Assembly (NCBI GenBank): GCA_903830625.1
Contig: CAIKUK010000012.1
Coordinates: 1-36,672, forward strand
Reading direction: 5' to 3'
DNA length: 36,672 nucleotides
From: Candidatus Yanofskyibacteriota bacterium
GTDB taxonomy: Bacteria; Patescibacteriota; Minisyncoccia; 2-02-FULL-40-12; GWA2-44-9
In this document: positions 8,709 through 16,334 of the stretch, in pieces
Numbering within the stretch: the first letter of the stretch is position 1
How the letters are laid out: every line of letters starts with the position of its first letter
Made by a program: the position numbers and the translations under genes
The notes under the pieces: generated by a model
The model's database searches: none
The model's input: the letters and a program-made list of their open reading frames with translations, nothing else
What the model was told of the DNA's origin: nothing

Positions 8709-9110
8709 TTATTTAAGCTCCGGCAGTTTCCCCCGCTTTACCATCTCTTGAAAAACTTCGTTGCTTGTCAGGGCCTTATGAAGTGGATCGAAAAGAGACG
8801 GGTCACCTGAATCTTTGGCCGCTTTTACGCCAGCCGAAGGATCATTAAGAGCCAGGCTGACCCATGATCTAACTTTTGCCTGCGCTTCTTCCGGCAATTC
8901 GTCAGCCGTTCGGCCAGGTTCGTGAGAAGAAGCTTTGAATCCCGGATCCTGCTCCTGAATCATATTTTCCGTCACTTCTGAAACGGCCTGATGTTCGGGG
9001 GCTATCTCAGAAGAACGCTCGCCGGTTTCGGTGGCTTTTTGTATTTCGGCTACTCGGCGCTCGTATTCCTTCTTTAATTGTTGGACTTGCTGTTCGGGAG
9101 TTCCTTCCAT
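8709..9110 (-). CDS. Hypothetical protein (133 aa), probably cotranscribed with the ATPase
   Basis: ORF spaced 5 nt from the ATPase gene; coiled-coil-like N-terminus. Confidence 0.65.
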   Translation of the reverse strand: MEGTPEQQVQQLKKEYERRVAEIQKATETGERSSEIAPEHQAVSEVTENMIQEQDPGFKASSHEPGRTADELPEEAQAKVRSWVSLALNDPSAGVKAAKDSGDPSLFDPLHKALTSNEVFQEMVKRGKLPELK

Positions 9111-11231: not shown

Positions 11232-12749
11232 ATGAAGTGTAAACCAAGCAGTGAAGTATTTGTTGTTCTTATTATTTTGGTTGTTGCCGTCTTTTTTCGA
11301 TTTTATCATCTTGAACAAACACCTCCGGGTCTCTATCCCGATGAGGCCATGAATGGTTCAAACGCGCTCGTGGCCAACGCCACCGGGCATTATCAAATTT
11401 TTTATCCTGAAAATTACGGTCGGGAAGGATTATTCATCAATATTCAGGCTCTGGCCATTAAATTTTTTGGTATTCATCCTTGGGCTTTGCGAGGCGTATC
11501 GGCCATGTTTGGTGTTTTAACCGTCCTCGGTCTTTATTTATTGGCTAAGGAACTTTTTGACTGGAAGATCGGGGTGATCTCAAGTTTTCTGCTGGCTATT
11601 TCGTTTTGGCATGTAAATTTTTCACGTATTGGCTTTAGAGCTATCATGCTGCCTTTTATTTTGGTTTACGCTTTTTATTTCCTCTGGCGAGGACTGAAAC
11701 AATCTCATTGGGGCAGTTTCTTTTGGGCCGGCATTTTCGGCGGACTAGGTTTTTATACCTATTTCTCCTATCGTATCGCGCCTTTAATCGTCATCGCGGT
11801 CTTTATTAATTATTGGATGTTCTTGAAAAAAGATTACCACCACGAAAATTACGAGCATACCCGCAACCGATTCCTGGGCGGATTTTCGTTGTTCATAATC
11901 ACAACGTTCTTCGTTGCTCTACCAATCGGTATTTATTTTTTAAAAAATCCTGATAACTTTTTACAACGAAGCACCCAATCGGTCTTTGTACAATCCCAAC
12001 CGCTCCAAGAACTAGCTACTAGTGTCGTTCGCACGCTAGGCATGTTCACTTTTGCCGGTGATGGCAATCCGCGCCATAATTTAGACGGTCAAGCCATGCT
12101 CGGCTGGCCGATTGCCATTTTGTTCGCTATTGGATTTATAAAAGAACTTTACCACTGGCTCCGGCGCAAACACGGTCATTTCTCGCCTGTTCATACGCTT
12201 ATGTTCGCCTGGTTTTTTGTGATGCTTCTCCCTGGTTTCCTTTCCACCGAAGCGCCGCACGCCTTGCGAGTCATTGGTGTCATTCCTATTGTGATGATTT
12301 TTGCCGCCCGGGGCCTCATGTGGTTATTTAGCGCTTCCGAAGGCTGGGAGGCAGTAACTCATCCATGGGAAGGCCGAGGACATTACCAATTTATCGCTCC
12401 GGTTTTGGCCGCACTGGCGCTGATGGGCGCTCTGGGGTTCTATGAATATAATCGTTATTTCAATGTTTGGGCGCCCAGTCAAATAACCGCCGATGCTTTT
12501 GCGGCAAATTATGTTGATATTGCCAATCAGATAAACGCCCAATCAATTTCCAAGAAGAAATATGTCGTCGTTGATGCCTCGACAAGCATTGAAGCTTACG
12601 GCTTACCGATTTCCGCGGAAACAGTGATGTTTTTAACTAACACAGTTTTGCCTTCCACCCAGCGCGCCAAGAATTTAACTTATCTTACCACCAGTCAATC
12701 AATTAATTATAAATTTAACCCCAATGCCATTATTTGGCATATCCGATAA
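11232..12749 (+). CDS. GT39/ArnT/PMT-like polytopic glycosyltransferase
   Basis: 505 aa; 'RFYHLEQTPPGLYPDEAMNGSNALVA', 'HPWALRGVSAMFGVLTVLGLYLLAKELF'. Confidence 0.8.
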   Translation: MKCKPSSEVFVVLIILVVAVFFRFYHLEQTPPGLYPDEAMNGSNALVANATGHYQIFYPENYGREGLFINIQALAIKFFGIHPWALRGVSAMFGVLTVLGLYLLAKELFDWKIGVISSFLLAISFWHVNFSRIGFRAIMLPFILVYAFYFLWRGLKQSHWGSFFWAGIFGGLGFYTYFSYRIAPLIVIAVFINYWMFLKKDYHHENYEHTRNRFLGGFSLFIITTFFVALPIGIYFLKNPDNFLQRSTQSVFVQSQPLQELATSVVRTLGMFTFAGDGNPRHNLDGQAMLGWPIAILFAIGFIKELYHWLRRKHGHFSPVHTLMFAWFFVMLLPGFLSTEAPHALRVIGVIPIVMIFAARGLMWLFSASEGWEAVTHPWEGRGHYQFIAPVLAALALMGALGFYEYNRYFNVWAPSQITADAFAANYVDIANQINAQSISKKKYVVVDASTSIEAYGLPISAETVMFLTNTVLPSTQRAKNLTYLTTSQSINYKFNPNAIIWHIR

Positions 12750-14497
12750 TGAAAAAACATTCTTTTATCGCCAGTGTTCTAGTGGCGGTTGCCAGTGTTA
12801 TTGCTATCGCCAGTGCCTGGCATGATTCGCCTATCGTCGATGAAATTCCTCACATCGGCGCCGGTTATTCCTATATCATCGGTCGGACTTATGAATTTAA
12901 TCCCGAACATCCCCCGCTCGCTAAAGACTTGGCCGGTTTGGCTCTTCTCCCGCTTGATATAAATTCCAGTATCATTCCAAAGATTGGCAGCGCTAATCCG
13001 CCTAATGGCGTCAATGATCAGTGGAATTTTGGACGATTATTGATTTATCATTCCGGCGATGACCCGATTGCCATTGTTCACGCCGCCAAACTGCCCCTTA
13101 TTCTTCTCTTTATTTTTTCTGCTATCCTGGTTTTTGCGTGGACTAAAAGAACCTACAACTCCCGCGCCGCGCTATTGGCCGTTTTCTTGTTTTCTTTTTG
13201 TCCAACCATTATTGCCCATAGCCGATTTGTTACAACCGATATCGCCGCTCTCTTCGGGGTTTTGTTCTCAACTTATTTCTTCGTCCGTTATCTCCAAGAA
13301 CAGAACACCGCTAATTTTTGGTTAGCGGCATTATCATTCGGTGTGGCTTTGCTTACCAAATTTTCGACATTTCTTTTGGTGCCATTCTTCGTGCTTACTG
13401 CAATCGCCTGGGCTTGGACTCATCATAACCAGTGGTTTAAACCGATGTGGCGGTTAGTCGTTAAAAGCATTCTGGTTATGGCCGTCGGTTTTGTGGTTGT
13501 AGTCGGTCCGGTTTATCAATTTCATATTTTAAATTATCCGGCCTCTCAACAAAAATCCGATTCTATACAAATCCTAGGTAGTTACGGAGTTCCGATAATA
13601 AAATCGGCTATTATCTGGAGCGCCGATAAACCGGTTCTTCGGCCGTTCTCTCAATTTGGTCTTGGACTAGCCATGGTCACTCAGAGGGCAGAGGGCGGAA
13701 ACCGCACTTATTATCTCGGGCAAGTTTCAAGCCAGTCGTTCAAATCATATTTTCCGATTGTCTATTCACTCAAGGAACCGATTCCGTTCTTGATTCTCCT
13801 TCTTGGCGCTATCTGGTTCGGTTTCAAATCTTGGCGAAAAGAACGTAAACCATTTAAAGAAAAGGTTAAGGAGCATTTCCTCGGGTTTACGATGCTTCTT
13901 TGGATAATTATTTATATGGTCGCCAGTATCAATGCCAATCTCAATATCGGCATCCGCCATCTCATCCCGATTTATGGATTCATCTTCATCTTAGTGGCCG
14001 GTCAAATCGAAGCGGTAATAAATAGAGAAAATATCAAAAAATGGTTCAAGATTTTTGTCTTTATTCTTCTTGGTTGGTATGTTGCCGAATTCGCATCTGT
14101 CTATCCGTACTATCTGACTTACTTTAACGAATTCGCGGGCGGGCCGGCGGGTGGTCATCGCTTTGTCGCTGATTCCAATCTTGATTGGGGCCAGGACCTT
14201 TGGCGCTTGGGAGATTTTGTAAAGCAAAATAATATTCAAAAGATATATACCGATTATTTCGGCTGGGCTGATGCCTCTTTCTATCTTGGTGATTCCTTTG
14301 TTTGGATGCGCGGCGGACAATACACCAGTGCTGATGCTTTTCTAAGAGAAAATCCTAATGGCGGCTGGTTGGCTATTTCCGCGACATTCTATCAGGAAGC
14401 GTCCGTTGACCCAAATCATCCCTATTTATGGCTTGAAAAATACACGCCAGTGAAAGTCATTGGGAACTCGATTTTTGTCTGGCACGTCACTCCGTAA
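12749..14497 (+). CDS. GT39/PMT-like polytopic glycosyltransferase
   Basis: MKKHSFIASVLVAV...DSPIVDEIPHIGAGYSYIIGRTYEFNPEHPPLAKDL; start overlaps the upstream stop (TAATG). Confidence 0.8.
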   Translation: MKKHSFIASVLVAVASVIAIASAWHDSPIVDEIPHIGAGYSYIIGRTYEFNPEHPPLAKDLAGLALLPLDINSSIIPKIGSANPPNGVNDQWNFGRLLIYHSGDDPIAIVHAAKLPLILLFIFSAILVFAWTKRTYNSRAALLAVFLFSFCPTIIAHSRFVTTDIAALFGVLFSTYFFVRYLQEQNTANFWLAALSFGVALLTKFSTFLLVPFFVLTAIAWAWTHHNQWFKPMWRLVVKSILVMAVGFVVVVGPVYQFHILNYPASQQKSDSIQILGSYGVPIIKSAIIWSADKPVLRPFSQFGLGLAMVTQRAEGGNRTYYLGQVSSQSFKSYFPIVYSLKEPIPFLILLLGAIWFGFKSWRKERKPFKEKVKEHFLGFTMLLWIIIYMVASINANLNIGIRHLIPIYGFIFILVAGQIEAVINRENIKKWFKIFVFILLGWYVAEFASVYPYYLTYFNEFAGGPAGGHRFVADSNLDWGQDLWRLGDFVKQNNIQKIYTDYFGWADASFYLGDSFVWMRGGQYTSADAFLRENPNGGWLAISATFYQEASVDPNHPYLWLEKYTPVKVIGNSIFVWHVTP

Positions 14498-14601
14498 ATC
14501 GAATTGGGCTTACGTCCCTCTCGGACCGATAATAAACCTGCTCCTGCGGCAGGTTTTTATCTACATGCTCGCGAACCGGACCGTAAGCCCAATTCGATTT
14601 A
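14495..14601. repeat. 20-bp perfect inverted repeat enclosing a terminator hairpin
   Basis: TAAATCGAATTGGGCTTACG (14495-14514) and its reverse complement (14582-14601); inner AAACCTGC...GCAGGTTTTTAT. Confidence 0.85.
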
Positions 14602-14628
14602 CTCCGTTCTTTTTTGTTTTTTTGGAAT

Positions 14629-14660
14629 AAAAAAACGCCCCGCCGCAGAACGGTCGGGGC
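14629..14660 (-). terminator. Intrinsic terminator of the structured RNA
   Basis: Minus strand CCCCGaCCGttctgCGGcGGGGCGTTTTTTT. Confidence 0.85.
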
Positions 14661-14697
14661 ATTGTTAGCCCATGGGCCACCTCCTTGAAAGAACGTT

Positions 14698-14723
14698 GGG
14701 CGATGCGGTGCACCGCATCGCCC
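14698..14723. repeat. 26-bp perfect palindrome inside the candidate ncRNA
   Basis: GGGCGATGCGGTG|CACCGCATCGCCC. Confidence 0.95.
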
Positions 14724-14758
14724 TCGAAGCACTCGAAGCTTTCGAAGCTTTCGAAGCC
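14724..14758. repeat. Four tandem copies of a 9-bp unit TCGAAGCNN
   Basis: TCGAAGCAC TCGAAGCTT TCGAAGCTT TCGAAGCC. Confidence 0.85.
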
Positions 14759-15203
14759 GAAGCGAGAAGAAGGGGGTCCGGACGGCACCAGCGGAGTCAT
14801 TACTTCCGCGACGCCGTCCGGTCGCCGGCCAGGCCAGCACGCTTTCGGCGGATGTTGGGCTTGACGTGGTCCTACAAGCCCCACGTACCCTCACCACGAG
14901 CGCGCGGCTCGGTCAGCTTCTTGTCGCGACATATGCGACATTTAAGAGCCCGACTAAACGGGCTCGCAAAAACCAATACTTACTCGCCCGGCCGTAGTTA
15001 TACGGAGGAGGGCTTACGCTCGTTAGCTATGACGAACTTACTATGAATTTCTATGGGCCTATCACTAAAAATGTGTTGTTGCCCGAAAAATAGCGTACTT
15101 ACTGGTTTTTGCGAGCCCATTTCGACAGAGATTCCAGGCCGGCTAAAGCACGGCCTAAAACCTTATCCGATAGGGCTCTTGTAAAGAACAAGTGTGTACT
15201 ACC

Positions 15204-15232
15204 ATTATAGCAGGTAGGGACTTTTATGTCAA
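15204..15232 (-). promoter_or_regulatory. Consensus sigma70-type promoter for the candidate ncRNA
   Basis: Minus strand TTGACA-TAAAAGTCCCTACCTGC (17 nt)-TATAAT. Confidence 0.85.
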
Positions 15233-15479: not shown

Positions 15480-16334
15480 CTATTTGAAGTAAACCCGGCC
15501 GTCAAAGCGCAAATCGACATATTGGGGTCTAAGCGTGCCACTGGCCATTTTCTGGGTTCTGAAGATGCGAAAGATATCCAGTTGGTTCTGCAAATCAGAA
15601 TCCAGACTGAATTTAACAGAATAATTTCCTGAAATAGAAGCGTCGGAACTATAACCTACCAAAACATCGAATTCAGTGTAAGTGTCGGCGGGGATGGTAA
15701 TTTTTTTAACTTTTATATCTTGGCCTGTGAGTACTGGTATTACCACCTGGATGGCTTTAAAAAATCTTGGGTCAACTGTGGCTAGAGAGGTCGAGGCTGA
15801 TTGAATCCGCATATCATCAACATTGAGCAACAACACGCCCGACGACTGAATAGCCTGACCAAAAGTTATGCCATTATGGTCAAAATATCGGCAATCAGGA
15901 CCATTGGTTGATGAAGTTGAAGCAAAGCACCACACTCCTTCCGCTTGGCGCTCGGTGGCTACGACTTTAAGTGTGTGAAAATATTTTTTCTGGATAGAAA
16001 TATTGTCTAAAAAAGAGAACTGCGAAGTTAAATCGGCCGCCAACGAACCTGGCCGGACAAATAAAATATCTCGTCCGACCGGAATCCCTAAAACTTTACC
16101 GTCTAAATTCTGCTCTATCGCCTGTTGAATTTCGGTTTGATGCTGACTGGTTAATCCTTCAAGATTAATTGTATTTACTTTTAGCCAAGGCATGTAAAAA
16201 AGCGCGTAACCAATGCCAGCGAGAACCACAATAGCTAATACAATAATTACTATAGCTCGGATATTAAAGTTTCGGCGTCGTTTCGACGCCAGATTGCTTC
16301 CATATTTAAATTTCTTAACATCGACAGGTCTCAC
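15480..16334 (-). CDS. FtsQ-like POTRA-domain cell-division protein
   Basis: 284 aa; short cytoplasmic N-terminus, one TM, 'WLKVNTINLEGLTSQHQTEIQQAIEQNL', 'ISIQKKYFHTLKVVATERQAEGVWC'. Confidence 0.75.
   Translation of the reverse strand: MRPVDVKKFKYGSNLASKRRRNFNIRAIVIIVLAIVVLAGIGYALFYMPWLKVNTINLEGLTSQHQTEIQQAIEQNLDGKVLGIPVGRDILFVRPGSLAADLTSQFSFLDNISIQKKYFHTLKVVATERQAEGVWCFASTSSTNGPDCRYFDHNGITFGQAIQSSGVLLLNVDDMRIQSASTSLATVDPRFFKAIQVVIPVLTGQDIKVKKITIPADTYTEFDVLVGYSSDASISGNYSVKFSLDSDLQNQLDIFRIFRTQKMASGTLRPQYVDLRFDGRVYFK

Follow-up and report, generated by a model that had tools for sequence, protein, structure and literature searches.

The minus strand of the window, a stretch of 36,672 nucleotides from Candidatus Yanofskyibacteriota bacterium, carries what is, as judged by sequence comparison, almost certainly an independent gene encoding a structured non-coding RNA. 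No catalogued Rfam family matches it, and the predicted RNA belongs to an undescribed family. Such a gene, together with the mechanism proposed below, is the best overall explanation of the locus and one that we regard as fairly probable. The locus comprises the following features.

15480–16334, minus strand: upstream gene for an FtsQ-like protein, used as synteny marker (weak POTRA_1 match, E 0.021, below the cut-off)
15204–15232, minus strand: promoter, with TTGACA at 15232–15227, a 17-nt spacer ending in TGC, and TATAAT at 15209–15204
14629–15197, minus strand: whole predicted transcript of about 569 nt, promoter to terminator, its start placed from the −10 element
15182–15189, minus strand: GUUCUUUA, a boxA-like leader element conserved in the leaders of most homologs
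15173–15178, minus strand: segment 1, GAGCCC, the 5' arm of the leader hairpin, which pairs with segment 2
15122–15170, minus strand: REP-like dispersed repeat with the AGGCCGUGCUUUAGCCGGCCU hairpin, which interrupts the leader hairpin loop
14960–15118, minus strand: conserved core of about 160 nt (80.5 bits, E 2.7e-17, with model R1, which was not trained on the window)
15100–15118, minus strand: 5' strand of the closing stem, GGGCUCGCAAAAACCAGUA, showing covariation and including segment 2 (15118–15113)
15048–15088, minus strand: apical hairpin UUUC-GGGC ... GCCC-AUA-GAAA, whose 3' side has a conserved bulge, a motif present in all close relatives
14960–14978, minus strand: 3' strand of the closing stem, UAUUGGUUUUUGCGAGCCC, including segment 3 (14965–14960), for which an alternative pairing with segment 4 is possible
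14946–14951, minus strand: segment 4, GGGCUC, which can pair with segment 1 or segment 3
14661–14945, minus strand: variable GC-rich 3' extension, including the CCGGACGGC hairpin (14773–14826) and a palindrome (14698–14723)
14629–14660, minus strand: intrinsic terminator, a GC hairpin followed by T7
12734–14497, plus strand: convergent downstream gene for a PMT_2 glycosyltransferase, used as synteny marker (PF13231, E 1.1e-14)

An earlier note on this DNA had proposed a TTGACA-17nt-TATAAT promoter at 15232–15204 on the minus strand and a terminator at 14660–14629. Both signals are present there. The promoter agrees with the sigma70-type consensus in 12 of 12 positions, has a TG before the −10 element (extended −10), and is one of just five sites in the 598-kb genome that match perfectly; T-runs behind GC-rich stretches were found in G001–G003 at the place matching the terminator of the window. 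At the sequence level, the unit thus has the own promoter and terminator of an independent structured RNA gene. Its predicted minimum free energy is −267.9 kcal/mol, as compared to a mean of −201.2 kcal/mol for shuffled sequences (z = −9.9), and none of 100 shuffles folded as well. A perfect 21-bp inverted repeat, GTAAATCGAATTGGGCTTACG, located at positions 14494–14514 and 14582–14602 of the window at the 3' end of the glycosyltransferase gene, is possibly a terminator for this convergent gene; in G002, the position is occupied by another long inverted repeat.

Homologs were detected by blastn in related genomes, where transcript positions 75–245 were matched in three congeneric genomes and in one genome of another genus. 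The matches lie, as in the window, between the gene of the FtsQ-like protein, which follows serS, and the convergent gene of a PMT-type glycosyltransferase, the latter neighbor being common to the window, G001–G003 and G009. Further homologs were collected using the FtsQ-like protein as anchor and reading downstream. Their parts follow the order promoter, GUUCUUUA, hairpin GAGCCC-loop-GGGCUC, A-rich strand, UUCAGGCAACAC, GCCGAUAGAA, and U-rich strand ending in GAGCCC. Candidatus Yanofskybacteria bacterium RIFCSPLOWO2_02_FULL_44_18 carries a homolog with a sequence identical to that of G012. The covariance model R1, built from four relatives with the window left out, gave matches in 20 of the 45 genomes of the order, some of which belong to other families, and a second covariance model of 13 sequences matched at least 25 of 387 genomes of the class, among them members of families that do not belong to the order. 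Since scoring was limited to nine candidates per genome when the class and the phylum were searched, the matched fractions obtained there are lower bounds; roughly every second genome of the order and the majority of those of the class were without a match, with few candidates per genome scored in the large searches. The weakest class match, G077, lacks the apical motif and was left out as a homolog. In a phylum-wide sample searched with model R3, the window's own genome was the only match among the genomes listed, which did not include the other known carriers. Neither a search of viral contigs for the exact core pattern nor a distant blastn search of a plasmid collection extended the distribution, the former giving no match and the latter only short chance or GC-hairpin matches.

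As a rule, a genome contains one such locus, and its position is conserved within the family. G003 has a second, core-only paralog (L156, 1501–1657) with its own 11/12 promoter, and G002 a weaker match at C8:45622. Core-only versions of 97–157 nt with their own promoters occur in other families, the minimal ones measuring 97–99 nt. G044 has a hairpin and T-run closely behind the core; in the case of G193 and G089, the closing stem is itself continued by Ts. Among 27 homologs, the best upstream site matched the sigma70 consensus in 9–12 of 12 positions, with 11 or 12 matches in more than half; nearly all homologs have promoters within this range, and most of these a TG before the −10 element. 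For G009, the better site TTGACT-17-TACACT was chosen over a wrong automatic pick, and upstream of the G089 core no convincing promoter was found.

The core consists of a closing stem of 19–20 bp enclosing a hairpin with a conserved bulge, which is 3–4 nt in size and located on the 3' side. The consensus around this apical bulge in the homologs is UUC-A/G-GGC ... GCC-N-WUA-GAA. Alignment A4 comprises 13 sequences and excludes the window; 98% of its cells are paired, and both partners have changed in 16 of its 25 pairs (5.4 in shuffles). In A5 with its 19 sequences, the respective values are 97% and 15 of 25 pairs (7.7 in shuffles). Both are structural alignments that were fitted to the models, and the kinship of their sequences is incompletely controlled for. 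When the alignments were slid as a control, paired cells fell to 33–52%. In the closing stem, 10–11 of the 19 pairs show changes on both sides with 97–98% of cells paired, and in the apical hairpin each of the six pairs of the model is variable yet maintained in 97–100% of cells (A4, A5). RNAalifold by itself predicted the identical closing stem; of the 20 pairs, 11 had changed in both partners while pairing was preserved. Sixteen of 17 homologous cores fold with z values of −3.8 to −8.4, the remaining one with −2.6. The compensatory changes expected in the conserved structure of an independent non-coding RNA gene are thus present. The 16-bp stem at 14960–14975/15103–15118 pointed out previously is real and forms part of a 28-nt inverted repeat with 86% complementarity.

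The earlier note's idea of a structured non-coding RNA is therefore supported by homologs with compensatory changes, found by iterative Infernal search of relatives; the conserved RNA, however, is the core of about 160 nt with a short leader and not the whole unit of 570 nt. Its statement that the unit lacks a coding ORF also agrees with our data. Open reading frames of 67–136 aa do overlap the unit, but they have no Pfam match, and conservation follows the stems. A small encoded protein is moreover disfavored because the core lengths of close relatives (159, 127, 159, and 137 nt) differ by numbers that are not multiples of 3, and we consider this reading extremely improbable.

Covariation within a palindrome can also reflect an element that acts at the DNA level, and the long inverted repeat, together with the insertion of a dispersed repeat into the copy of the window, would suit a long palindrome, a mobile-element remnant or an attenuator rather than an RNA gene. 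Such a DNA element would, however, hardly be expected to occur as a rule at one syntenic locus per genome with the promoter kept on one strand. R1 scored the core of the window with 80.5 bits in the sense and 38 bits in the antisense orientation, and CAGGCAACAC and GCCGAUAGAA are conserved though largely unpaired with each other. An RNA gene is thus by far the preferred reading, and a DNA element is very unlikely.

The GC-rich 3' extension, roughly 200–400 nt in the window's family, is less conserved than the core and absent from the core-only versions of other families; in the window, the extension with its terminator folds with z = −5.4. Two helices highlighted by the earlier note lie within this variable part: the CCGGACGGC hairpin is real but common to the nearest relatives only, and the perfect palindrome of 26 bases at 14698–14723 likewise exists, but has no counterpart in the relatives read. 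The CCGGACGGY/RCCGUCCGG hairpin of the extension covaries in G000–G002. Two further helices do not belong to the conserved RNA, since a proposed CTTGT/ACAAG hairpin is not conserved in relatives, and the AGGCCG/CGGCCT hairpin, which the earlier note had included in the RNA, is part of the dispersed repeat that interrupts the copy in the window. The presence of this REP-like repeat within the loop of the leader hairpin is, by comparison of the sequences, a peculiarity of the window copy: it is absent at this position from G001–G003, the loops of which are short. Further copies of the repeat hairpin (GGCCGTGCTTTAGCCGGCCTGGAATC) are located on contigs C10, C11, C14, C21, C23, and C24 of G000, and there are more in relatives.

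Most homologs share the leader motif NGU(U/A)C(U/C)UU at about +5 to +10. Untranslated transcripts such as rRNA leaders and some CRISPR arrays bear a boxA, and GUUCUUUA near the 5' end of the RNA resembles the consensus of this element. NusB is encoded in the genome. Since the 16S leaders of the family contain no motif equal to GUUCUUUA, the similarity is to be regarded as a resemblance only. In G000, two TTGACT/TATAAT promoters (C8:21691 and C24:17407) are followed by leaders that are nearly identical to each other (GAAGCTCTGAAATAGGGGCTTC ... GCTCTTTGAAAA) and precede open frames; they perhaps represent a shared regulatory leader.

The beginning of the RNA has a second property which may bear on its folding. 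Segments 1 and 2 covary and are complementary in 112 of 114 cells of 19 homologs, a value reached by 0 of 2000 permutations. For segments 2 and 3 in the 19 homologs, the value is 113 of 114 cells, reached by 13 of 2000 permutations. These statistics are based on hand-picked six-letter segments and ignore kinship. Because segment 2 (GGGCUC) can pair both with segment 1 upstream and with segment 3 downstream, the sequences suggest a folding switch or folding intermediate. The 3' hairpin involving segment 4 has a predicted energy of −14.5 kcal/mol in the window and is weak or absent in several homologs.

Folding of the SRP RNA is thought to involve an early 5' hairpin which is replaced by the long closing stem. 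The RNA described here, with its candidate early leader hairpin and subsequent closing stem, both predicted, resembles the rod-like bacterial SRP or 4.5S RNA (RF00169), a housekeeping RNA, in this respect. A divergent SRP RNA might also be considered because RF00169 gave no match in the window, its own genome, or any of the 45 genomes of the order, other SRP models being covered through the Rfam scans. However, pattern searches revealed no GGAA-capped domain IV motif in the core, relaxed domain IV patterns had no convincing match, and neither Ffh nor an FtsY-like protein was detected in the genome when E. coli Ffh served as the query for tblastn and phmmer. The G000 assembly, in which Ffh, FtsY, and SRP RNA were not detected, is rated 100% complete. 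Since ffh and 4.5S RNA were reported missing from Parcubacteria in a survey (PMC4508563), absence of SRP from the genome is expected, and identity of the RNA with SRP RNA is very unlikely, to the point of being barely conceivable. Inspection of the apical bulge by eye led us to reject two other readings, namely a kink-turn, for which the GA steps on both strands are missing, and an SRP-like motif, for which the GGAA cap is missing.

The Rfam scan of the window yielded no family at the gathering score and none that is meaningful at E ≤ 10, and the RNA in 19 homologous loci likewise had no match, consistent with the earlier note, in which signature motifs gave no match to tmRNA, RNase P RNA, or SRP RNA. 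On all other contigs, Rfam detected only tRNAs, tmRNA, RNase P RNA, a group I intron, and a 16S rRNA that contains a long insertion. tmRNA (RF00023) is thus encoded elsewhere in the genome, at C23:2796–3179 (114.8 bits), as is RNase P RNA (RF00010), at C24:10357–10777 (108.4 bits). A limited set of literature on non-coding RNAs of Parcubacteria and Patescibacteria contained no description of the RNA. OLE, GOLLD, ROOL, and raiA are large structured bacterial non-coding RNAs which are long, promoter-driven and lineage-restricted and were found by comparative genomics. The RNA of the window is likewise long, promoter-driven, highly structured, and lineage-restricted, but differs from them in that it has no Rfam match and that its conserved core is small, the 3' extension being optional.

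6S RNA (RF00013), a single-copy rod-like RNA with its own strong promoter that binds sigma70 RNA polymerase and serves as template for pRNA, deserves closer comparison. A rod-like RNA with a long stem and apical arm, encoded in single copy behind a strong promoter in a genome in which the 6S family was not detected (no match at E ≤ 1), could bind and sequester RNA polymerase holoenzyme. The covariance model, however, matches neither the window nor the 19 homologous loci, and the minimal versions are only 97–99 nt in length. 6S RNA is defined by a large central single-stranded bubble between two helical arms, whereas the predicted folds of G015, G035, and G042 lack such a bubble, the apical stem abutting the closing stem; as some other homologs do have loops between these stems in their predicted folds, a large central bubble is not a consistent feature. 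To our knowledge, neither the conserved bulged apical motif nor an A/U-rich closing stem occurs in 6S RNA. We therefore consider a 6S-like function unlikely.

In the mechanism that we propose instead, the RNA would be made constitutively and at a high level. Its boxA-like leader may load Nus factors, and RNA polymerase would therefore pass the long, untranslated, hairpin-rich unit. During transcription, the leader hairpin of segments 1 and 2 would form first, to be displaced by the emerging segment 3, with which segment 2 would build the long closing stem. Once complete, the rod and its bulged apical hairpin may act in trans as a docking site for protein and thus constitute the RNA part of a housekeeping ribonucleoprotein. 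A trans-acting, protein-binding housekeeping role is our best guess at the function, put forward tentatively. A base-pairing regulatory sRNA would instead use the unpaired GUUCUUUACAU in the leader and the apical loop as seed regions for mRNA. The stretches in question are indeed conserved and unpaired, but the most conserved part of the RNA is a long helix and not a seed, which makes this role about as doubtful as a 6S-like one.

Whatever its role, the retention of the RNA with near-perfect promoters in genomes of 0.4–1.2 Mb deserves attention. The Candidate Phyla Radiation comprises a large part of bacterial diversity and is characterized by tiny genomes with few known RNAs. Because the RNA is kept in tiny genomes from which the otherwise universal SRP is gone, it likely does something basic. 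Both SRP RNA (45 genomes) and 6S RNA (own genome) were not found in the searches of the lineage; that the RNA is a Parcubacteria housekeeping RNA forming the core of a previously unknown ribonucleoprotein, and does the job which SRP or 6S RNA performs elsewhere, is a conceivable extension to which we give little credence. With the covariance model and the homologs that the family provides, expression, structure, and protein partners are open to direct tests.

Two further observations concern other RNA genes of G000. The 16S rRNA match at C8:6966–9170 spans about 2.2 kb, and the insertion of roughly 700 bases in this gene is probably an intron. A group I intron (RF00028, 78 bits) was matched at C18:8642–8852, just upstream of a tRNA match at 8948–9020.
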